From NCBI RefSeq assembly GCF_027530345.1, contig NZ_JAPZQK010000002.1:62001-126000 (forward strand): 64,000 nt of DNA, written 5' to 3'. This stretch comes from Silanimonas sp. GTDB lineage: Bacteria; Pseudomonadota; Gammaproteobacteria; Xanthomonadales; Xanthomonadaceae. Shown here in pieces: positions 859 to 23,383 of the stretch. Each line of letters starts with the position of its first letter. The first letter of the stretch is position 1. Under the pieces are notes generated by a model. That model searched no databases, was not told the origin of the DNA, and saw only the letters and a list, made by a program, of their open reading frames with translations. The position numbers were made by a program, and so were the translations under genes.

Positions 859-2043
859 TCACGGGGCGCGCAGTTTAGCGCGGCGGCGCTCCCGCCAGCG
901 TCGGGCGGCGGCGAGGACGGGGCGCTCGATGGCCCACCAGGACAGGGCCGCGACGGCCAGCGAGACGAGCAGGCTGGCGACGACGTAACCCGCCAAACCC
1001 CAGGTCGGCGGGACGTAGCCGCCGAGGGCCGCGCGCAGCGCCCACTGCACCGGGTAGTGCCACAGGTAGAGGCCGAAACTGACCGTGCCCAGCGCGACCA
1101 GCGGCGCGCTGCCCAGCGCGCGCGCGACCCGGCCCTCCGGGGCACGCACCAGCGATACCAGCAGCACCGCGACCGGCGCGGCGGTGAACAAGGGCCAGAA
1201 CCATGTCCAAACGCGCGCATCGATGATTCCAACGTATGCGCGATCGCCGCCGAGTTGCGGCAGCAGCACCAGCACGGCGAAGGCCAGCAGGGCCAAGGCA
1301 TCAGCCCACAGGGGCGCCCGAGCGGCGCCGAGGGACTCCTGAGCCATGCCGCCACGGCCTTTGCGCTCTCCAGTCGACATCCACCGCGCCAGGGCCATGC
1401 CCGCGACGAACTGCACCAGCCGGCCCGGCAGGTGCTCCGACCAACCGATGCGCTGTTCGATGGCCGTGACGTCATGCATCGCGAAGCGCCACGCCACCGC
1501 GAGGATCGCCGCGCCGAGCAGCAGCCCGAGCATCCGCCGCGATGCCCCCCACGCCCACCAGAGCAAGGGCAGGACCGCATAGAAGCCCGCTTCCACGGGC
1601 AAGCTCCACCACGGCCCCAGATGCGCCGGCATCCAGGGCCAGGCGTTGAGCCAGAGGGCCACATGGGCCAGCGTCTCGCCGTTCGACGCGGGCGTCCACG
1701 CGATGGCGGGCGTCAGCAAGACGGCGGCGGCCGGCAGGGCGAACACCGCCAATTGCGCGTAGTAGGCCGGAAGGATGCGCGCCACGCGCATCAGCGCGAA
1801 GGCAGTCCAGTCGGGGCGCCGTTCCCCACCCGCGAGTTCATCTCCAAGCCCACGGGCCAACAGGAACCCCGACAGCACGAAGAACACGTCGACGCCCAGC
1901 CATCCCGCGCCTAGCAGTGCTGTCATCGGTGCAGGCAGCCCAGCCCCGGCGGCACCCGACAGTGCCCAGGCGTGGAAGACGAGGACCCAGAGCGCGGCGA
2001 GTCCGCGGAGTCCGGTCAGGGCGGGCAGGCGGCGGTCGTTCAT
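859..2043 (-). CDS. Acyltransferase family 3 (OafA/YrhL-like) membrane protein
   Basis: LPALTGLRGLAALWVLVFHAW, DVFFVLSGFLL motifs, multiple hydrophobic segments. Confidence 0.88.
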   Translation of the reverse strand: MNDRRLPALTGLRGLAALWVLVFHAWALSGAAGAGLPAPMTALLGAGWLGVDVFFVLSGFLLARGLGDELAGGERRPDWTAFALMRVARILPAYYAQLAVFALPAAAVLLTPAIAWTPASNGETLAHVALWLNAWPWMPAHLGPWWSLPVEAGFYAVLPLLWWAWGASRRMLGLLLGAAILAVAWRFAMHDVTAIEQRIGWSEHLPGRLVQFVAGMALARWMSTGERKGRGGMAQESLGAARAPLWADALALLAFAVLVLLPQLGGDRAYVGIIDARVWTWFWPLFTAAPVAVLLVSLVRAPEGRVARALGSAPLVALGTVSFGLYLWHYPVQWALRAALGGYVPPTWGLAGYVVASLLVSLAVAALSWWAIERPVLAAARRWRERRRAKLRAP

Positions 2044-2061
2044 GGCGCGGAAAAACGAAAA

Positions 2062-2079
2062 GCGCCCCAAAAGGGGCGC
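2062..2079 (-). terminator. Intrinsic terminator of tRNA-Ser(CGA)
   Basis: Stem GCGCCCC/GGGGCGC with 4-nt loop, followed on minus strand by TTTTCGTTTTT. Confidence 0.8.
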
Positions 2080-2090
2080 CTTTCCTGATC

Positions 2091-2181
<91 letters not shown>

Positions 2182-2280
2182 GGTGGTCTCTCGGCCGCGG
2201 TGGTGCAGCGGCTGATCGAGCCGCGCATCTTACAGCCTCCCCTCGCCTCGCGCCAGCCCTGCCGCGACGGGCCGCAAGGC

Positions 2281-4278
2281 TCAGCGCCCTCCCGCCGACG
2301 CGCCCGCGCCCCGCGCCTGCAGGACGAAGGTGCCGCTCTGGTGGCCGGCGAAGCGGATCGGGGCGAACTGGGGGTCCTGCACGACGCTGGCATCCAGCGT
2401 CGCCAGCGCGAGCGAGGCGGAGACGTCCTGGAACAGCCGCGTCGCCTCGAGCACGCCGCGATTGTCCTCGAGCACGTTGAGGAAGGCGCGGGCGAAGTAG
2501 CTGTGCCCGCTGGGACCCGTGTCCGGCACCGGCTGGACGCCCCCCGAGGTCAGGGCGAGGCGGGAACGCCCGGCCGTGGCCTCGCGAAGCCAACGGCCGA
2601 GGCCGGCGGCATCGAGGCTGGCATCGGCGATCGGCACCGACGCGCGCGTCATCGTGCCGGAGTAGCAGGAATCGGCCACCACGAGCACGCGTTTGGCGGG
2701 CAAGGTGTCGAGCACTTCGCTCAGCGCGCGGTTCGAAATCCACGATTCCGAACGGCCGGACAGGCCATCCACCGGCACCCAATGGCCCTCACCGGAATCC
2801 GAGAGCTCGCCATGGCCGGCGTAGTAGATCAACAGGTTGTCGTTCTCGCCGAGCGTCTTGCGCAGGGCATCGAGGGCGGTGAGCGTCTCGAGCCGCGAGG
2901 CGTTCAGCAGCAGCCGCGTCTCGAAGCCGTAGCGCTGCTCCAGCAACCGCGCCACCGCCGTCGCGTCCTTGGCCGCGCTGCGGAGGTCCGGGTAATCGGG
3001 ATTGCCGTAGCGGTCGTTGCCGATGACCACCGCGTAGTAGCGGCCCAGCGCGGCGTTGGGCGACGTGGTCTCGGCCGCGGCGATGGCCGAGCCACCGCCG
3101 GCCGTCATCAGGGTGAACTCGAGCGTGGCAACGCCACCATCGGCCTTGGTCGCGCTGACTTTCACCGGCGTGCCCGCCTCCGCTGCCTGCAACTTGGCCT
3201 GGAACAGGCCAGCGCTGCTGAGCGGCACGTCGGTGCCATTGATGGTGACGCTCTTGACCTCGCCCGCACCGGCCACGCGACCCGTGATCGTGCGTTCGCC
3301 AGGGCCGCCACGCACTACCGCGGCAGGTCGGCCGCGCATCGCCACCAGCGGCGGGTCGATCAGTTCGAGACGCGCGGCCATGCCGCCGCCCGCGCCGACC
3401 TGGCGCTCCAGCCCGGCGATCAGGTTACGCTGGCGACCGATCTGCGATTCCTGCTCGGCCAGCGTGTTTTCCAACAGGCGTTGCAGCGCCGGGTCCTCGG
3501 CTTGTTTCGCCGCCTCGAGCTTCTGCCGTGTGTCCGCGAGTTCAGCGCGTGCGCTGGCGAGGGCGGCACGTCGCTCGGCCAGCTGCGACCGAAGCCGAGA
3601 CACTTCCGCGCGCAGGGCTTCGGCCGCGGCCTGCTCCCGCGCGACATCCTGCTCGAGGCCCTCGATGCGCTGGTCACGCTGGTCGATTTCGACCTGCACC
3701 ACCGAGGCATACAGCAATTCATCCTCGATGCCGGCGCCCTGCCGGTAGAGGTTCACCGCCTTCGCCGCGTCGCGCTCGACACCAAGGCCCTCCTCGTACA
3801 ACCAGCCAAGGTTGATCATGGCGCGCTTGTCGCCCTGCTCCGCCGCCTTCTTGAACCACTGGAAGGCCATGCCGAAGTCGGGTTCGATGCCGAGTCCTTT
3901 GGCATAGATCTCCCCGACAGCGTTCTGTGCTTCCGCACTGCCGCCCATCGCTGCATCCAGCCACACCTTCAGCGCGGTCTGGTAGTTCGCGCGGTCGTAA
4001 GCGACGTACTCGCCGCCGCGGATCTCGCAATCCGCCTGCGTGGTGCGGATCGGCCGGCGCGCGCTCATGAAGCTGGCCTGCCGGCCAAGCTGGCGGATCT
4101 GCCCCGGCAGCAGGCAATCGACGACCAGGAGATCCTCGGCATTGCGGACGCTGGGGCCGTCCTGGGCCGCCACGGGCGCGGAGGCGCCGGCCGCCAGTGA
4201 AACGAGGAACACCGCGAGGGCGGATGCGAGTCGGGACGAGGTCGGGACGCGGGAAACACGGGCAGGACGACCGGCCAT
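2281..4278 (-). CDS. Exported caspase-family (C14-like) protein with SEL1-like repeats and coiled coil
   Basis: Signal-peptide-like N-terminus; SEL1-like AQNAVGEIYAKGLGIEPDFGMAFQWFKKAAEQGDKRAMINLGWLYEEGLGV; p20 motifs YYAGHG and DSCYSG. Confidence 0.85.
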   Translation of the reverse strand: MAGRPARVSRVPTSSRLASALAVFLVSLAAGASAPVAAQDGPSVRNAEDLLVVDCLLPGQIRQLGRQASFMSARRPIRTTQADCEIRGGEYVAYDRANYQTALKVWLDAAMGGSAEAQNAVGEIYAKGLGIEPDFGMAFQWFKKAAEQGDKRAMINLGWLYEEGLGVERDAAKAVNLYRQGAGIEDELLYASVVQVEIDQRDQRIEGLEQDVAREQAAAEALRAEVSRLRSQLAERRAALASARAELADTRQKLEAAKQAEDPALQRLLENTLAEQESQIGRQRNLIAGLERQVGAGGGMAARLELIDPPLVAMRGRPAAVVRGGPGERTITGRVAGAGEVKSVTINGTDVPLSSAGLFQAKLQAAEAGTPVKVSATKADGGVATLEFTLMTAGGGSAIAAAETTSPNAALGRYYAVVIGNDRYGNPDYPDLRSAAKDATAVARLLEQRYGFETRLLLNASRLETLTALDALRKTLGENDNLLIYYAGHGELSDSGEGHWVPVDGLSGRSESWISNRALSEVLDTLPAKRVLVVADSCYSGTMTRASVPIADASLDAAGLGRWLREATAGRSRLALTSGGVQPVPDTGPSGHSYFARAFLNVLEDNRGVLEATRLFQDVSASLALATLDASVVQDPQFAPIRFAGHQSGTFVLQARGAGASAGGR

Positions 4279-4392
4279 GGGGCCTCCGGGCAGTTGCCGG
4301 ACGCGGCCGGCTTCGTAGCTATACTCGTGGCCACGTGTATACACGCCCGCATGGGGAAATGCGACGCGTGGCCAGCCCCCGGGGAGTCTTCG

Positions 4393-7281
4393 ATGACCAG
4401 TTCCGCGTTGCTTGGCCGCTGCGTGCGGCTGTTCGCCTTTGCCGCTCTGGCGATGCTCGCGCAGCCGGCGCTCGCGACGATCAACTGCGAGATCACGCCC
4501 AACGGCGTGACCACGCTGGTCGCGAACACCGGCGACAGCCTTAGCGTCGACTACACGGTCGGCGGCGGCGGCTGCGGCACCGCGATCACCACAACGACGT
4601 CGATCGTCACCGACACCACCGGAGGCAACGTCTCCCCACCGTCGGAGACGAACCTGCCCGGCTCGCGGAACTCGTTGATCAACGTCGGCCCTGTCGCCGG
4701 AACGATGGTGGTGCGCATCGAGTGCACGGCGGGCTGTTTCGGGTCGCCGGCGAACTTCATCATCAACTACACCATCACCGCGACGGTGCCGGTCATCCGC
4801 AACCTCAGCCCCGTCGGGCCTGTGAGCTTCGACGCGGAGGGGGGCACGTCCACCATCGTCCGGGTAACCGCTGACGACAGCGGAACGCCCGCGAGCACGA
4901 CGATCGTGTGGTTCGCAAGCGGCCCGGTGACGCTGTCTTCCACCTCGACGAACACGGATGCCACCGGCAACGCGAGCGTGGTCGCCACCTTCGGGCCGGG
5001 CACGGGTGCGGCCACCATCTCCGCCAGTCGTGTCGACAACTCCGACTTCTTCATCAACTACACCATCAATGTGCAGCCACCGACGGTGCGCACGATCGTC
5101 CCGGTGAACGGCAACAACCAGAGGGGCCCGACCCGCACGGCGGCCTCCAACCCGCTCGTCGTCGAGGCCCGCGACAACGGCGTCGCCGCGGCGGGCGTGG
5201 GACTGAACTGGGCCGTCGTGTCGGGCGACGCCGCGATCACGACGGCGGACGCCGTGACCGGCGCCGCCGGGCAAGGCCAGGCGACGGTGCGTTTCGGCGC
5301 CGCGCCTGGACCCATCGTGGTGCGGGTGAGCCGTACCGATGACCCCACGGCCAATGCCACGTTCTCGCTGACCTCGACGCTGACGCGGACGATGGTGTCG
5401 GTCTCCGGCAACAACCAGAACGCGCCGACGCGCACGGCCTTGCCCAACCCACTGGTGGTCGAAGCGCGCGACAACGGCATCGCCGCTCCGGGCATCGGCA
5501 TCACCTGGACCGTCGTATCCGGTGACGCCACGCTGTCATCCCCGATCCCGGCCACCGATGCCGCAGGACGCGCTCAAGCGGGACTGCAGCTCGGCGCCAC
5601 GCCCGGAGCGATCGTCGTCCGCGCGGCACGCGCCGACGACACCAGCGCCACCGTCGACTTCGCGGTGACCTCAACCTTCGTGCGCACCCTCGCCCTCGTG
5701 TCCGGCGGCGACCAGCAGGGCATTCCCGGCCTACCGCTGCCGAACCCGATCGTCATCGAGGTGCGGGGCAACGGCCAACCGGAACAGGGCGTGATGGTGG
5801 ACATCCGGGTGGACGGCGATGCGACGGTCGCCGGCGACGGTGGCCCCATGGCGAAAATCACCAAGGTCACCGGGGCCGACGGCCGCGTCAGTGCCGTGGT
5901 CACATTGGGCCCGAACAGCAGTGGCGTCGTCAGCATCCAAGCCAGCGTTCCCGCCACGCCGGGCCTGAGCACCACGGTGGCGGCCACCGCGAACAACCTC
6001 GAGAACCTGCCGGGCCTCACGGGCCCGGAACGCGAACTCGGCGGCGTGATCCAGGACGCCTGCGCGGCCATCGCGCGCATTCCCGTCGCGCAGCGCACCG
6101 CCGAACAGAGCGACCTGCTCGCGCGCTGCCAGAGCTTCGCCGGCGCCAATCCCGGCCAGATCGCCGACGCCCTCGACCAGTTGCTGCCCGACACCACGCT
6201 GGCCATGGTGAACGTCGCGCTGCAGGCCGGACAGGCGCAGCTCGACAATCTCAAGGCGCGCATCGCCGCCCTGCGATCGGGCACCCAGGGCAGTGCGTTC
6301 GGCGGCTTGGCGCTGGCCTCGCCGGCCGGCGCGATCCCCGTCACGAGCTTCGTCGGGAAGGCGCTGAATGCCGACCAGACCACCGAAGCCGGTGCCGGAT
6401 TCGACCGCTGGGGCTACTTCGTCTCCGGCACGATCGGCCGCGGCGAGTCCGAGGCCGGTCGTCGCACGCCGGCCTACGATTTCGACATCAACGGCCTGAC
6501 CGCCGGCGTCGATTACCGCTTCAACGACGGTTTCGTGGCCGGTGCGTCGCTCGGCTACACCAAGCAGGACACCGAGCTGGCCAGTGGCGAAGGCAACGTC
6601 GATGCAGACGGCTACAGCCTGTCGGCCTACGCCACGTTCTACCGTGACGAGAGCTGGTACACGGATGCCGTCCTGACCTGGGGCCGCAACGACTACGAGA
6701 CCCTGCGCCGCATCCGCTACACGCTGACCGGCCCGGGCGGCAGCAGCACCATCGACCAGACCGCCCGCGGACGCCTCGACGGCGACCTGCTCTCCGTGGC
6801 CAGCACGGTGGGCCGCGATTACCAGGCCGGCACCTGGAACATCGGGCCCTATGGCCGACTGCTGTATTCGCGCATCGATTTCGACGCCGGCCGCGAGGTG
6901 ATCGGCAGCGGCGCAGGCAGCGGCCTCGCGCTGGAGATCTTCCCCGGCACCCACACCTCGCTGGCGAGCGTCATCGGCACGAAGTTCAGCACGGCGCTCA
7001 GCCGCGACTGGGGCATCCTGATGCCGCACCTGCAGGTCGAGTGGGAGCACGAGTACCGCGACGACCCGCAGCGCGTCGGTGCCCGCTTCCTCGCCGACCC
7101 GAGCGCCACGCGCTTCAGCATCGAAGGGGAGCCGATCGACAGCAGCTTCTTCCGCATCGGCGGCGGCCTGTCGGTGCTGTTCGCCGGTGGGCGCTCCGGT
7201 TTCGTCTACGTGGAACGGGTGATCGGCAAGTCCGGTTTCACCCAGACCAATCTCGCGCTGGGCATCCGTGGCGAGTTCTGA
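4393..7281 (+). CDS. Autotransporter with tandem bacterial Ig-like domains and C-terminal beta-barrel
   Basis: Signal peptide MTSSALLGRCVRLFAFAALAMLAQPALA; approx. 99-aa Ig-like repeats; barrel-like C-terminus ending in F (LALGIRGEF). Confidence 0.85.
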   Translation: MTSSALLGRCVRLFAFAALAMLAQPALATINCEITPNGVTTLVANTGDSLSVDYTVGGGGCGTAITTTTSIVTDTTGGNVSPPSETNLPGSRNSLINVGPVAGTMVVRIECTAGCFGSPANFIINYTITATVPVIRNLSPVGPVSFDAEGGTSTIVRVTADDSGTPASTTIVWFASGPVTLSSTSTNTDATGNASVVATFGPGTGAATISASRVDNSDFFINYTINVQPPTVRTIVPVNGNNQRGPTRTAASNPLVVEARDNGVAAAGVGLNWAVVSGDAAITTADAVTGAAGQGQATVRFGAAPGPIVVRVSRTDDPTANATFSLTSTLTRTMVSVSGNNQNAPTRTALPNPLVVEARDNGIAAPGIGITWTVVSGDATLSSPIPATDAAGRAQAGLQLGATPGAIVVRAARADDTSATVDFAVTSTFVRTLALVSGGDQQGIPGLPLPNPIVIEVRGNGQPEQGVMVDIRVDGDATVAGDGGPMAKITKVTGADGRVSAVVTLGPNSSGVVSIQASVPATPGLSTTVAATANNLENLPGLTGPERELGGVIQDACAAIARIPVAQRTAEQSDLLARCQSFAGANPGQIADALDQLLPDTTLAMVNVALQAGQAQLDNLKARIAALRSGTQGSAFGGLALASPAGAIPVTSFVGKALNADQTTEAGAGFDRWGYFVSGTIGRGESEAGRRTPAYDFDINGLTAGVDYRFNDGFVAGASLGYTKQDTELASGEGNVDADGYSLSAYATFYRDESWYTDAVLTWGRNDYETLRRIRYTLTGPGGSSTIDQTARGRLDGDLLSVASTVGRDYQAGTWNIGPYGRLLYSRIDFDAGREVIGSGAGSGLALEIFPGTHTSLASVIGTKFSTALSRDWGILMPHLQVEWEHEYRDDPQRVGARFLADPSATRFSIEGEPIDSSFFRIGGGLSVLFAGGRSGFVYVERVIGKSGFTQTNLALGIRGEF
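4798..5979 (+). repeat. Four tandem Ig-like coding repeats (periods 291, 297, 297 bp)
   Basis: Repeat-start codons at 4798, 5089, 5386, 5683; conserved R-T-x-x-V-x-G-N-N-Q / NPLVVEARDNG / GDA blocks. Confidence 0.85.
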
Positions 7282-7294
7282 GTAGGATCTGGCG

Positions 7295-7999
<705 letters not shown>

Positions 8000-8002
8000 G
8001 GC

Positions 8003-9490
8003 TCAGAGGCCGCGCTGGGCCGCTTCAGCGGTTTCCTTCAGCTTGAGCAGCTCGGGGTCGTCGGGCAGGGCTTCCAAGCCGTAACCCGCGACCGTCGCGC
8101 AGCCGATCCAACGCTCGGCAGCGCAGAGCTTGGTGGCCGAATCCCGGTAGTAGGCCGCCACCGCCGCAACACCAGCGATCGCCGCTGGGTTGGTCGGATC
8201 CGCCGAGAGCACACTCTGGAACTTGCCAAGCGCCGTGTCCTCGTGACCGCGGAGGCCAACGCCCTCGCTCCCCACCACTTGGGTGCCCTGCTGGAGGTAC
8301 GCCTCCGCCTGCCGCAGCGCCAGATCCATCTCGTCCGCACTCATCGTCGCGGCTGCCACGCCCGTCTCGCCCGGCGTCTCGAAGGTCGCCACGCCCGGGC
8401 CCGCCACCGGCTGCTCCGAGACCAGCGTCGGCAACAAGGTGGGCTCGGCCGAGCGCCACGGCGCCCACAGCAGCACGCCCACAACAGCGGTCGCCACGAC
8501 GCCCAAGCCGATGCGCAGGGGCCAAGGGTTCGACGCCTCATCCGTGCCCGCCTGCTTCGCGGCCTTGTCGCTGACGCGCGTGCGCTGCTGCGTGGCCGCC
8601 GGCGCCGAGCGCGCCATGCCCTCGCGCGCTTCGAACGCCTGCACGTCGACGGCGCCCGGCGGGGCCGTCGGCAGCATGCGCTGCACCGCAGCGATCACCG
8701 CGGCGCCGGTGTTGTAGCGCTCGCCGGCCATCTTCGACATCAGGCCGTTGAGCAGCGGCTGCAACCACGCGTGCTGCGGCGGTAGGGTAGGGATGGGCTC
8801 GGTGATGTGGGAGAGCGCCACGGAGAAAGCGTCGGGCGCCTCGTAAGGCGGGCGGCCCGTGAGCATCTCGTACAGCATCACGCCGAGGCTGTAGAGGTCG
8901 GAGCGGCCGTCCACGGGTTCGCCGCGCGCCTGCTCGGGACTCATGTAATCCGGCGTACCGACGGACATGCCCGCCATCGTCGAACTGGTGCCGCCATCCA
9001 TCGCCTTGGCGATGCCGAAATCGGCCAGCACGGCGCGGCCGTCCTTGCGGAACAGCACGTTGCCCGGCTTGACGTCGCGATGCACCACGCCCTTCTCGTG
9101 CGCGTAGTCGAGGCCATGCGCAATGTCGGAAAGCACATTGAGGGCCTCGCCCACCGACAGCCCCTCGTCGGTGATCCGTTCCTTCAGCGTGCCGCGCGGG
9201 ATGAACTCCGCCGAGAGGTAGTAGATGCCGTTGTGCATGCCGATGTCGTGGATGGTCACGACGTTCGGGTGCTGCAGCTTGGCGGTGAGCTTGCCTTCCT
9301 TCAGGAAGCGCTCGGCGAACTCGGGGTTGGCGGCGAGCGCCGGTGCCATCACCTTCAGTGCGACTTCGCGATCCAGCGACTCCTGCACGGCGAGGAACAC
9401 CGAGGCCATGCCGCCCTGCCCCAGCGTGCGCAGGATGCGGTAGCCGGGAATAGCGATGTCCACCGCCTGCAGCAGCACCGTCGAATTCAT
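8003..9490 (-). CDS. Hanks-type Ser/Thr protein kinase with single TM segment and C-terminal extracytoplasmic region
   Basis: GQGGMASVF, VVHRDVKPGNVLF, ADFGIAKAMDGG, GTPDYMSPEQARG; TM WPLRIGLGVVATAVVGVLLWAPW. Confidence 0.95.
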   Translation of the reverse strand: MNSTVLLQAVDIAIPGYRILRTLGQGGMASVFLAVQESLDREVALKVMAPALAANPEFAERFLKEGKLTAKLQHPNVVTIHDIGMHNGIYYLSAEFIPRGTLKERITDEGLSVGEALNVLSDIAHGLDYAHEKGVVHRDVKPGNVLFRKDGRAVLADFGIAKAMDGGTSSTMAGMSVGTPDYMSPEQARGEPVDGRSDLYSLGVMLYEMLTGRPPYEAPDAFSVALSHITEPIPTLPPQHAWLQPLLNGLMSKMAGERYNTGAAVIAAVQRMLPTAPPGAVDVQAFEAREGMARSAPAATQQRTRVSDKAAKQAGTDEASNPWPLRIGLGVVATAVVGVLLWAPWRSAEPTLLPTLVSEQPVAGPGVATFETPGETGVAAATMSADEMDLALRQAEAYLQQGTQVVGSEGVGLRGHEDTALGKFQSVLSADPTNPAAIAGVAAVAAYYRDSATKLCAAERWIGCATVAGYGLEALPDDPELLKLKETAEAAQRGL

Positions 9491-10197
9491 GCCTCGCTCC
9501 CCCAGAGCACCGTGCCGCCGGCCTTCTTCGCGATGCCCGCCATGCGGGCCGCATGCGCCTCGGCTTCCTCGGGGAGGATGCCCCGGCGCACCACGGCCGC
9601 CAAGGGGCGAAGCGCGGTTTCCGCGGCACGGGACGTCCCGTTTTCGCCGGCGTCGGCGCCGAGCGAGAACTCGCCCTGACCGGAGGTCATCGTGAGGTAA
9701 ACATCGGCCAGCAGCTCGGCATCGAGCAGCGCGCCGTGGAGCGTGCGATGGCCGTTGTCGACGCCGAGGCGCTTGCACAGTGCATCGAGCGAATGGCGCT
9801 GGCCGGGGAAACGCTGCTTCGACAGCGCCAGCGTGTCGAGCACGCCGATCACGTGATCGTCGATGCGGCCGTATTCCGGGCCCAACCGCGCCAGTTCGGC
9901 GTTCAAGAAGCCGACGTCGAAGGCCGCGTTGTGGATCACCAGTTCCGAACCGCGGATGAAGTCGAGGAACTCCTGCGCCACCTCGTGGAAGAGCGGCTTG
10001 TCGCGGAGGAAATCCCAGGTGAGGCCGGTGACCTCGGCCGCGCCCGGCTCCATCTCGCGCTCGGGATTGAGGTAGCGCTGGAAATGCCGCCGCGTGGGGC
10101 GGCGCTCCATCAGCTCGACGCAGCCGATCTCGACGATGCGGTTGCCCTTTTCCCAGGACAGGCCGGTCGTCTCGGTGTCGAGGATGACCTGCCTCAC
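9487..10197 (-). CDS. dnaQ: DNA polymerase III epsilon subunit (3'-5' exonuclease)
   Basis: [31 protein letters not shown] start overlapping the rnhA stop. Confidence 0.95.
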
Positions 10198-10643
10198 GCC
10201 GTGGCCCCGCTGCGATAGCGCTCGGCCTGCGTGCGAGCCAACACGTCCACGCGCTCGTTGTCGACGTGGCCGGCATGGCCCTTCACCCACGTCCAGGTCA
10301 TGCGGTGCTGCGCCGCCGCGGCATCCAAGCGTTGCCAGAGGTCCTGGTTCTTCACCGCGCCGCCGCCTGCCGTCTTCCAACCCTTGCGCTTCCAGCCCGG
10401 CATCCACTCGCTGATGCCCTGAAGCACGTACTTGGAATCGCTGTGCAGCACGACCGCGCAAGGCTCCTTCAGCGCCTCGAGTGCAGCGATCGCGCCCATC
10501 AGCTCCATCCGGTTGTTGGTGGTCTGCGCCTCGCCGCCGGCGAGCTCGCGCTCGGTACCGTTGAAGCGCAGCAGTGCGGCCCAGCCGCCCGGCCCCGGGT
10601 TACCGAGGCAGGCACCGTCGGTATGGATTTCGATCGACTTCAT
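10194..10643 (-). CDS. rnhA: Ribonuclease HI
   Basis: [41 protein letters not shown]. Confidence 0.97.
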
Positions 10644-10665
10644 GGCCCGATGATACGGGCCCGGC

Positions 10666-11346
10666 TCAGGCGGCCGGTACCCCGGGGGAGGCGCGCCAGG
10701 CTGCGGCGGGACGGCGCAGGGGCGTCAGACCAATATCGCGGCGCACCGCCAGCAGGGCCCAAGCCACGCGCCCCCAGTCCATGCGCGCCGGCACGGGGGC
10801 CACATCGAGGGCGGCCGGCCGCCAACGCGGCCCAAGCGTGCGCTGCGCCACGACGTCGAGCCCCTCGCCGCGCAGCAGATCGACGATACGAGAGCACGGC
10901 AAGGCCCGCACGCCATGCCGCGCCCAGCGCAGCCGGGCCAAGCCCCACGGGTTCAGGCCGAACACCAGCAGTCGCCCATCCGGACGCAGGACCCGCGCGC
11001 ACTCCGAGACCAGACGCTCGGGCGAGGGCACCGACTCGAGGACGAAGCGCAGGTCGATCCGGCTCACCGCGGCGCTGGCCATCGGCAACGTGTGCAGGTC
11101 AGAGCGCCAGGCCCCTTGCCACCGGCCCGCGTCGGGGGCCAGCGTCCACGTCTCCGCGAAGCAGGCGGCGGGCTCTGGGACCAGCCAGTCCAGTTCGGGA
11201 AGCATCCGCAGCGACACCTGTCCGCCGCCATCGGCGCCGTGTTCGGTCCAGGCGGATTGCGCGCCGAGCAGCAAGCCCCGGGCGGGGGGATCGGCCAGCC
11301 AGCGGTTCAGGGCTTCGGCTTGACGGGGGAGTTGGAGGGCCGGCAT
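10666..11346 (-). CDS. Class I SAM-dependent methyltransferase
   Basis: [39 protein letters not shown]; located upstream of rnhA as is common. Confidence 0.75.
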
Positions 11347-22383: not shown

Positions 22384-22468
<85 letters not shown>

Positions 22469-22502
22469 AGGCTTTGGAGCAGGCGAAGCGGCGTTCGAGG
22501 TT

Positions 22503-22578
22503 TGGTGGGCCGTCTAGGATTCGAACCTAGGACCTACGGATTAAGAGTCCGCTGCTCTACCAACTGAGCTAACGGCCC
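22503..22578 (-). tRNA. tRNA-Lys(CTT)
   Basis: Anticodon loop CTCTTAA, GGGCCGT/ACGGCCC acceptor, CCA encoded. Confidence 0.95.
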
Positions 22579-22632
22579 GGAAACCTCGTCGCCGACGCGA
22601 CTGCGAAGGCGAATTATGCCCTACTGAAGGGC

Positions 22633-22710
22633 TGGGGTGGAAGACGGGATTTGAACCCGCGACCCCTGGAATCACAATCCAGTGCTCTAACCAACTGAGC
22701 TACATCCACC
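22633..22710 (-). tRNA. tRNA-His(GTG)
   Basis: Anticodon loop TTGTGAT, G-1 present, CCA encoded. Confidence 0.95.
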
Positions 22711-22720
22711 ACATTGAAAC

Positions 22721-22797
22721 TGGCGCGCCCGGCAGGAATCGAACCTGCAACCGCCGGCTTAGAAGGCCGGTGCTCTATCCGATTGAGCTACGGGCGC
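22721..22797 (-). tRNA. tRNA-Arg(TCT)
   Basis: Anticodon loop CTTCTAA, GCGCCCG/CGGGCGC acceptor, CCA encoded. Confidence 0.95.
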
Positions 22798-22867
22798 TCA
22801 GAAACGGATGGACCCACCGGACCCGACGCCGGGGCATCAGCTTATCGACACCACCAGACCACGCAAC

Positions 22868-22944
22868 TGGTCGGGGCAGAGGGATTCGAACCCCCGACAT
22901 CCAGCTCCCAAAGCTGGCGCTCTACCAGACTGAGCTATACCCCG
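22868..22944 (-). tRNA. tRNA-Pro(TGG)
   Basis: Anticodon loop TTTGGGA, CGGGGTA/TGCCCCG acceptor, CCA encoded. Confidence 0.95.
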
Positions 22945-23030
22945 GCTTTGAAGCGGTCGGGCGAAGAACGACTGCCACGCGAATTGTGTTGGACCACTGG
23001 ATCGACGCGATGCCGCGTCTCTCCTCCGAA

Positions 23031-23053
23031 CAAAAAAGGTGCCGAAGCACCTT
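23031..23053 (-). terminator. Intrinsic terminator of tRNA-Arg(ACG)
   Basis: Minus strand AAGGTGC-TTCG-GCACCTT followed by TTTTG. Confidence 0.85.
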
Positions 23054-23063
23054 GTTTGATCGA

Positions 23064-23140
23064 TGGCGCGCCCGGAAGGATTCGAACCTCCGACCCCCAA
23101 GTTCGTAGCCTGGTGCTCTATCCAACTGAGCTACGGGCGC
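23064..23140 (-). tRNA. tRNA-Arg(ACG)
   Basis: Anticodon loop CTACGAA, GCGCCCG/CGGGCGC acceptor, CCA encoded. Confidence 0.95.
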
Positions 23141-23290
23141 GTAGAAGTGAAATTATGCGGAGTGGATGTCGGGACGTCAAGCCCCGGAACCCACTTTTCT
23201 GAACCACCACCGCGACGCATGCGATTGATGCAAACGCGCGGGCGATCTATTCCCGCCAGACGAAGACGCCGCCCGAGGGCGGCATCGACG

Positions 23291-23383
23291 TGGCGGAGTG
23301 AGAGGGATTCGAACCCTCGATAGAGCTTTTGACCCTATACTCCCTTAGCAGGGGAGCCCCTTCGGCCTCTCGGGCATCACTCC
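23291..23383 (-). tRNA. tRNA-Ser(GCT)
   Basis: Anticodon loop CTGCTAA, long variable arm, GGAGTGA/TCACTCC acceptor, CCA encoded. Confidence 0.95.

Follow-up and report, generated by a model that had tools for sequence, protein, structure and literature searches.

Within a 64,000-nucleotide stretch of the Silanimonas sp. genome (contig NZ_JAPZQK010000002.1, positions 62,001 to 126,000; hereafter the window), four consecutive genes raise the question of whether an exported caspase-fold protein, a surface protein, a protein phosphatase and a protein kinase belong to one system. They encode a SEL1-caspase of 665 aa (2281-4278, minus strand), an autotransporter (AT) of 962 aa (4393-7281, plus strand), a PP2C-type Ser/Thr phosphatase of 234 aa (7295-7999, plus strand, 13 nt 3' of the AT stop) and a Hanks-type Ser/Thr kinase of 495 aa (8003-9490, minus strand). 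The caspase and AT genes are divergent, and the PP2C and kinase genes are convergent with a gap of 3 nt. An earlier reading of the letters without database searches (the sequence-only reading) had described this arrangement, and open reading frames and domain matches confirmed the place and strand of all four genes as well as the 13-nt spacing. It had also proposed a single surface-signalling system. This holds for the caspase, the kinase and the AT, which very probably constitute one functional system, judging from the way they are inherited together, from domain architectures that are conserved, and from their export signals and intact catalytic residues; the place of PP2C, a core gene, is weaker.

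Joint inheritance and recurrence of the three genes

Each protein was searched against the same 150 genomes of the family. Orthologues of the caspase, the kinase and the AT were present in 24 genomes each, and the three sets are identical. Their scores stand apart from those of the next-best matches (336 versus 129 bits for the caspase, 422 versus 309 for the kinase and 287 versus 125 for the AT). PP2C, in contrast, occurs in 148 of the 150 genomes and counts as core in this family. The sequence-only reading had placed the four genes inside core DNA; this is correct, with the addition that PP2C belongs to that core itself while the other three genes are variable.

Family genomes that lack the unit, two congeners (G060 and G136) among them, have the gene order rnhA-dnaQ, PP2C, tRNA-Ser(CGA), DUF6165, the genes flanking PP2C being core genes too. 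In unit-bearing genomes, the kinase lies between dnaQ and PP2C, and the AT and the caspase lie between PP2C and tRNA-Ser. Comparison of the two orders indicates that the three genes come and go jointly despite the core PP2C gene between them. One member has been relocated in 6 of the 24 genomes (the kinase away from the caspase in G023, G034, G074, G095 and G096; the AT in G041), and all three genes are still kept; in L145 and L146, the caspase and the AT remain paired although the kinase lies elsewhere. In a tree of PP2C from 27 genomes, at least four gains or losses of the unit are required, and well-supported branches force two of them. Since the genomes are related, the count of shared presence is not a probability, and the argument rests on repeated joint loss or gain and on retention when dispersed. 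A second, diverged but complete AT-caspase-kinase copy occurs in one genome (G101; L157, C96), and another diverged kinase-AT-caspase unit in a genome of genus g12 (G089; L160, C27). Family ATs unrelated to the unit generally have neither a caspase nor a kinase adjoining. The caspase, the AT and the kinase are a variable, conserved unit around a core PP2C gene.

Scanning GTDB genomes extended the survey past the family and yielded 80 named loci, among them loci of Silanimonas, Arenimonas, Aquimonas, Ketobacter, Hahella, Methylomonas, Sedimenticola, Thiotrichales, Chromatiales and Rhodocyclaceae. A Hanks kinase is encoded at 59 of these loci, usually together with an AT, and at none of them does the distance from the caspase to the nearest kinase exceed 7 kb. 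Gene order is identical in Silanimonas and Arenimonas and varies elsewhere (kinase, caspase and AT on one strand; caspase followed by kinase; PP2C/caspase/kinase; AT/kinase/caspase). To avoid the bias of best hits, 370 gammaproteobacterial genomes were drawn, and the 25 full-length SEL1-caspase loci in them were examined. Neighbours were counted with seeded profiles and not by BLAST clustering of all neighbouring open reading frames (ORFs), in which unrelated families and shadow ORFs ran together. A kinase was found near 20 of the drawn caspases, an AT near 16, an alpha/beta-hydrolase near 13 and PP2C near 7, compared with 1, 0, 0 and 0 in 28 control stretches, some of them short, from the same genomes. 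None of the partners accompanied two caspases whose match is confined to the caspase end of the model. Because the named loci served to train the profiles and some of them reappear among the drawn loci (L162 is apparently L092), this class-wide draw is an even but not wholly independent set. In a phylum-wide draw, matches outside Gammaproteobacteria covered the caspase end only or slightly more. The trio is neither limited to close relatives nor scattered in unrelated contexts, the two outcomes that the sequence-only reading had named as speaking against a system, and its adjacency exceeds chance.

Several further observations concern these loci. A GxSxG alpha/beta-hydrolase, often with a lipobox, gave 39 matches among the 80 named loci, mostly beside the caspase (examples from L080-L135 are L088:10742-11647 and L111:8598-9698). 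It was considered as a missing part of the Silanimonas unit and set aside: no homologue was found in the window genome, a weak empty result given the distant query. In Ketobacter-type loci, a gene of about 390 aa without a Pfam or NCBIfam match lies between caspase and kinase (L080:12072-13238; relatives in L082-L086, L102 and L114). Metagenome-assembled genome (MAG) records named Rhizobium sp. (L071) and Klebsiella pneumoniae (L116) carry gammaproteobacterial loci of environmental type; the former is Arenimonas-like and probably mis-binned.

At the window locus, the kinase start shares 4 nt (ATGA, 9487-9490) with the stop of the dnaQ-like exonuclease gene (9487-10200, minus strand, true start probably near 10200), and the kinase can therefore be regarded as the end of an rnhA-dnaQ-kinase run. 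On the other flank, tRNA-Ser(CGA) (2091-2181, minus strand) stays in place in genomes that lack the unit. Elsewhere in the window, seven tRNA genes (Leu, Lys, His, Arg, Pro, Arg, Ser) are clustered at positions 22384-23383 on the minus strand.

The encoded proteins and the caspase/AT control region

The caspase has a signal peptide with its end near ...APVAAQ, two Sel1 repeats (PF08238, 3.5e-19) and a Peptidase_C14 domain (PF00656, 3.8e-17, above cut-off), in agreement with the sequence-only reading, and it is the sole Peptidase_C14 match of the genome. In an alignment of 79 caspases, the catalytic dyad H489/C538 is invariant, and so are D438 and D536, putative pocket residues whose positions we take to be those of the S1-pocket Asp residues of metacaspases. 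The N-terminus forms a small beta domain with invariant C55 and C84 and the motif DCLLPGQ...C.IRGGEY. It is followed in an AlphaFold2 model (mean pLDDT 83) by Sel1 helices, a long coiled coil (190-297), an immunoglobulin (Ig)-like sandwich (304-392) and the caspase domain (414-655). The top fold match of the latter is to MALT1 paracaspase structures (E 7.5e-12), and caspases also match. The model of EACC1-associated caspases (NF047832) gave 72.9 bits, under its cut-off of 140 bits. The nearest named caspase, from Silanimonas sp. LE19-338.1E, is 98% identical. Lysobacteraceae caspases carry an ordinary signal peptide, and most distant relatives carry a lipobox, as recognized by a simple pattern. 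By sequence, the protein is a caspase-fold protein (clan CD, Peptidase_C14) with an intact His-Cys dyad that is predicted to be exported. Short frames of about 180-320 aa match only caspase residues ~12-96, the Cys-bearing N-terminal part (G122:C65:204031-204423, G026:C40:66256-66462 and G129:C3:479577-479828), which suggests that this part is a separate domain used elsewhere.

The AT combines a signal peptide, a passenger with some four to five Ig-like units recognizable as self-repeats, a linker with a conserved Cys pair (C557/C579), and a C-terminal beta-domain (677-939); its last residue is Phe. Its barrel matches Autotransporter (PF03797) at 1.9e-48 and TIGR01414 with 62.5 bits (cut-off 16); the Big_1 match (2.8e-7, 31.0 bits) is slightly below the cut-off of 34.9. 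With its signal peptide, passenger and C-terminal PF03797 barrel, the predicted protein is a type Va autotransporter, and its earlier description as an Ig-repeat AT stands. The barrel is common to ATs across lineages, and the passengers vary (Big_1, Calx-beta, cadherin-like, DUF11). The motif R..LR.G is present in 50 of 69 unit ATs. Arg623/Arg628, upstream of the barrel, was considered as a caspase cleavage site and rejected, since the same motif is found in several ATs without a nearby caspase. In genus g26 (L074-L077, L155), two tandem ATs lie between caspase and PP2C, and some of these genomes have extra copies elsewhere.

The caspase and AT genes diverge from a 114-nt intergenic region (4279-4392) that contains a near-perfect palindrome, TATACTCGTGGCCACGTGTATA, at 4320-4341. 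Of 20 upstream regions compared, 18 have TATACT on the AT strand, and a 19th has just the opposite-strand copy, AGTATA. AGTATA often follows about 10-20 nt beyond the AT-strand TATACT, and the TATACT-type elements of related loci point both ways. A scan of positions 2000-10700 for sigma-70-type promoters, which requires both hexamers, gave no match, and for this reason the TATACT elements were assessed by comparison across loci. We infer that they are overlapping divergent -10 elements or an operator, either of which would co-regulate the pair.

The kinase domain (17-275; Pkinase, 4.6e-48) precedes a single predicted transmembrane (TM) segment at about 323-347, as in the sequence-only reading. 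Residues K46, H137, D139, K141, N144 and D157-F158-G159 are invariant among 62 aligned sequences, i.e. the Lys/HRD/DFG set is kept. The C-terminus of the window kinase is a confidently modelled helical TPR-like domain (385-492) that is predicted to be periplasmic. Each of the caspase-linked kinases inspected has a single TM-like segment, mostly near residues 300-320, with about 85-230 residues beyond it, and these post-TM segments have conserved positions in common. The PASTA-kinase model NF033483 gave 298.8 bits, below its cut-off of 450, in line with TPR-like helices rather than PASTA repeats. PP2C matches PF13672 (9.8e-15) and scores 221.6 bits with the Stp1/IreP model NF033484 (cut-off 230). 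It adjoins the kinase in several lineages and is likely the counter-phosphatase of the system.

Proposed wiring and competing explanations

The simplest reading of these architectures would be a link between regulated proteolysis in the cell envelope and intracellular Ser/Thr phosphorylation. The AT would place an Ig-type rod on the cell surface. The caspase, periplasmic here and lipid-anchored in most distant relatives, would act as a regulated protease with a preference for a basic P1 residue. Its Sel1/coiled-coil part would keep it inactive up to an activating event at the surface or in the envelope. Once active, the caspase would cut the AT or another envelope substrate. The kinase could read this state through its periplasmic TPR-like domain and, through Ser/Thr phosphorylation that PP2C would reverse, relay it to the cytoplasm. 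The system would thus extend over the surface (AT), the periplasm (caspase and kinase C-terminal domain), the inner membrane (kinase) and the cytoplasm (kinase domain and PP2C). That the genes form one cell-envelope system and are wired in this way, the two taken jointly, we rate a little short of an even chance. The specific protease-kinase-AT relay is put forward tentatively. With the same caution, we suggest that in Gammaproteobacteria an exported paracaspase-like protease, a TM Ser/Thr kinase and a surface AT may act as an outside-in proteolytic relay, a signalling system of the envelope not recognized before, with the caspase working outside the cytoplasm.

Three observations weigh against this picture. 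PP2C persists without the other three genes in the same family. Ketobacter-type loci (L080-L086) lack an AT, and their caspase is flanked by PP2C, hydrolase and kinase only; the AT, absent from some relatives, may not be obligatory. The Arg motif of the AT linker is also carried by ATs outside the system, and the sequence consequently gives no specific cleavage site. The idea of the sequence-only reading that an envelope caspase processes an adhesin or responds to envelope stress under phosphosignalling control is retained as to the shared system; cleavage of the AT by the caspase, a response of the kinase to it and envelope stress as the trigger are hypothetical.

The four genes could be incidental neighbours, unrelated but kept adjacent in one clade through vertical descent. 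The identical order in Silanimonas and Arenimonas, the position of the kinase in the rnhA-dnaQ run and the core status of PP2C would fit. Such an origin is nevertheless very improbable in view of the joint absence on both sides of PP2C, the retention of all three genes when dispersed, and the recurrence of the genes, differently ordered, in many families while the control stretches are clean. A narrower function deserves more weight, although we consider it unlikely: the caspase may only mature or shed the AT as processing or quality control, with the kinase controlling AT synthesis or activity and no outside-in signalling. The divergent, apparently co-controlled caspase/AT pair, which stays together where the kinase has moved, agrees with this function, but loci with caspase and kinase and no AT do not, and the conserved post-TM domain of the kinase suggests periplasmic sensing.

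Bacterial conflict systems include caspase-fold proteases and Ser/Thr kinases, and the locus could be an envelope-directed cell-death or defence module in which an executioner caspase, triggered by the kinase, activates a lytic partner (the alpha/beta-hydrolase or the AT). The lipase-like GxSxG hydrolase beside many of the caspases and the domain-level matches to PADLOC kinase and caspase models are in its favour. We regard this as improbable, since the unit lies in core DNA and not in a defence island, its AT passengers are of adhesin type (Ig, cadherin and Calx-beta repeats) and not toxin domains, and the search of the window genome for the hydrolase, weak as it is, was empty. A known anti-phage system was not recognized by PADLOC, which returned separate generic domain matches (caspase, PD-T4-6 kinase, PDC-M21C) and no multi-gene match. 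Highly unlikely is a regulator of another secretion machine, comparable to the kinase-phosphatase switch of type VI secretion. Here, tssA (ImpA) adjoins the caspase-kinase pair in two Hahella species and an Oleiphilaceae MAG (L111, L112, L120), and the adjacency of PP2C and kinase in several lineages would suit such a switch, but TssC (PF05943) is absent from the window genome (G000) and from 22 of 24 unit-bearing genomes. For the Silanimonas genome, a type VI regulator was judged unlikely on the absence of TssC.

Relation to known systems and significance

A close parallel to the proposed protease-kinase-AT system is found in adhesin proteases. The Lap system follows the same logic, with genes that together encode a cysteine protease of the periplasm (LapG), a signalling receptor in the inner membrane (LapD) and a large adhesin of the cell surface (LapA). 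The same three kinds of protein are encoded together in its Desulfovibrio relative Dvh (PMC13090378). In the present unit, the protease has a caspase fold and not the LapG fold, a Ser/Thr kinase and PP2C stand in place of a c-di-GMP receptor, and the surface protein is a type V autotransporter, whereas the Lap adhesin is secreted by a type I system. LapG-type protease, GGDEF/EAL and type I-secreted adhesin domains were not found in the four genes, the rest of the genome not having been searched.

MALT1, which cuts after Arg, resembles the caspase as its top structural match and in having an Ig-like domain beside the caspase domain; unlike this cytoplasmic signalling protein of animals, the unit caspase is predicted to be exported, and it has a coiled coil and Sel1 repeats. 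With metacaspases and orthocaspases it shares a Peptidase_C14 domain with a His-Cys dyad. A survey of these bacterial proteins lists Sel1 among their common partner domains (PMC3501461); the word autotransporter is absent from it, its operon section reports no kinase-AT neighbourhood, and the Xanthomonas-type metacaspase it treats has another architecture and other neighbours than the unit caspase. The kinase and PP2C recall PknB/Stk and Stp in the single-pass Ser/Thr kinase with an extracytoplasmic C-terminal domain and an adjoining PP2C, with a TPR-like helical domain in place of PASTA repeats. They also resemble type VI PpkA/PppA/Fha as a kinase-PP2C pair governing an envelope machine, from which the unit is set apart by the lack of TssC in the window genome and of an FHA protein among its genes.

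The sequence-only reading knew of no described system of this composition, and neither a combination of caspase, autotransporter and Hanks kinase nor a related one was found described in the open-access full text searched. As a gene system, the unit would be categorically new, built from known component families and with a mechanism that is proposed.

Caspase homologues are common in bacteria; to our knowledge, most of them have neither known partners nor a known function, and the debate has mainly treated them as death proteases of the cytoplasm. One bacterial caspase subfamily now gains constant partners, a predicted place in the envelope and a proposed wiring that can be tested. The unit points to a counterpart, based on phospho-signalling, of the adhesin proteases under c-di-GMP control, and knowledge of it may aid the annotation of many genes now labelled 'caspase family protein' or 'autotransporter' in Silanimonas, Arenimonas, Methylomonas, Hahella and uncultured Gammaproteobacteria.

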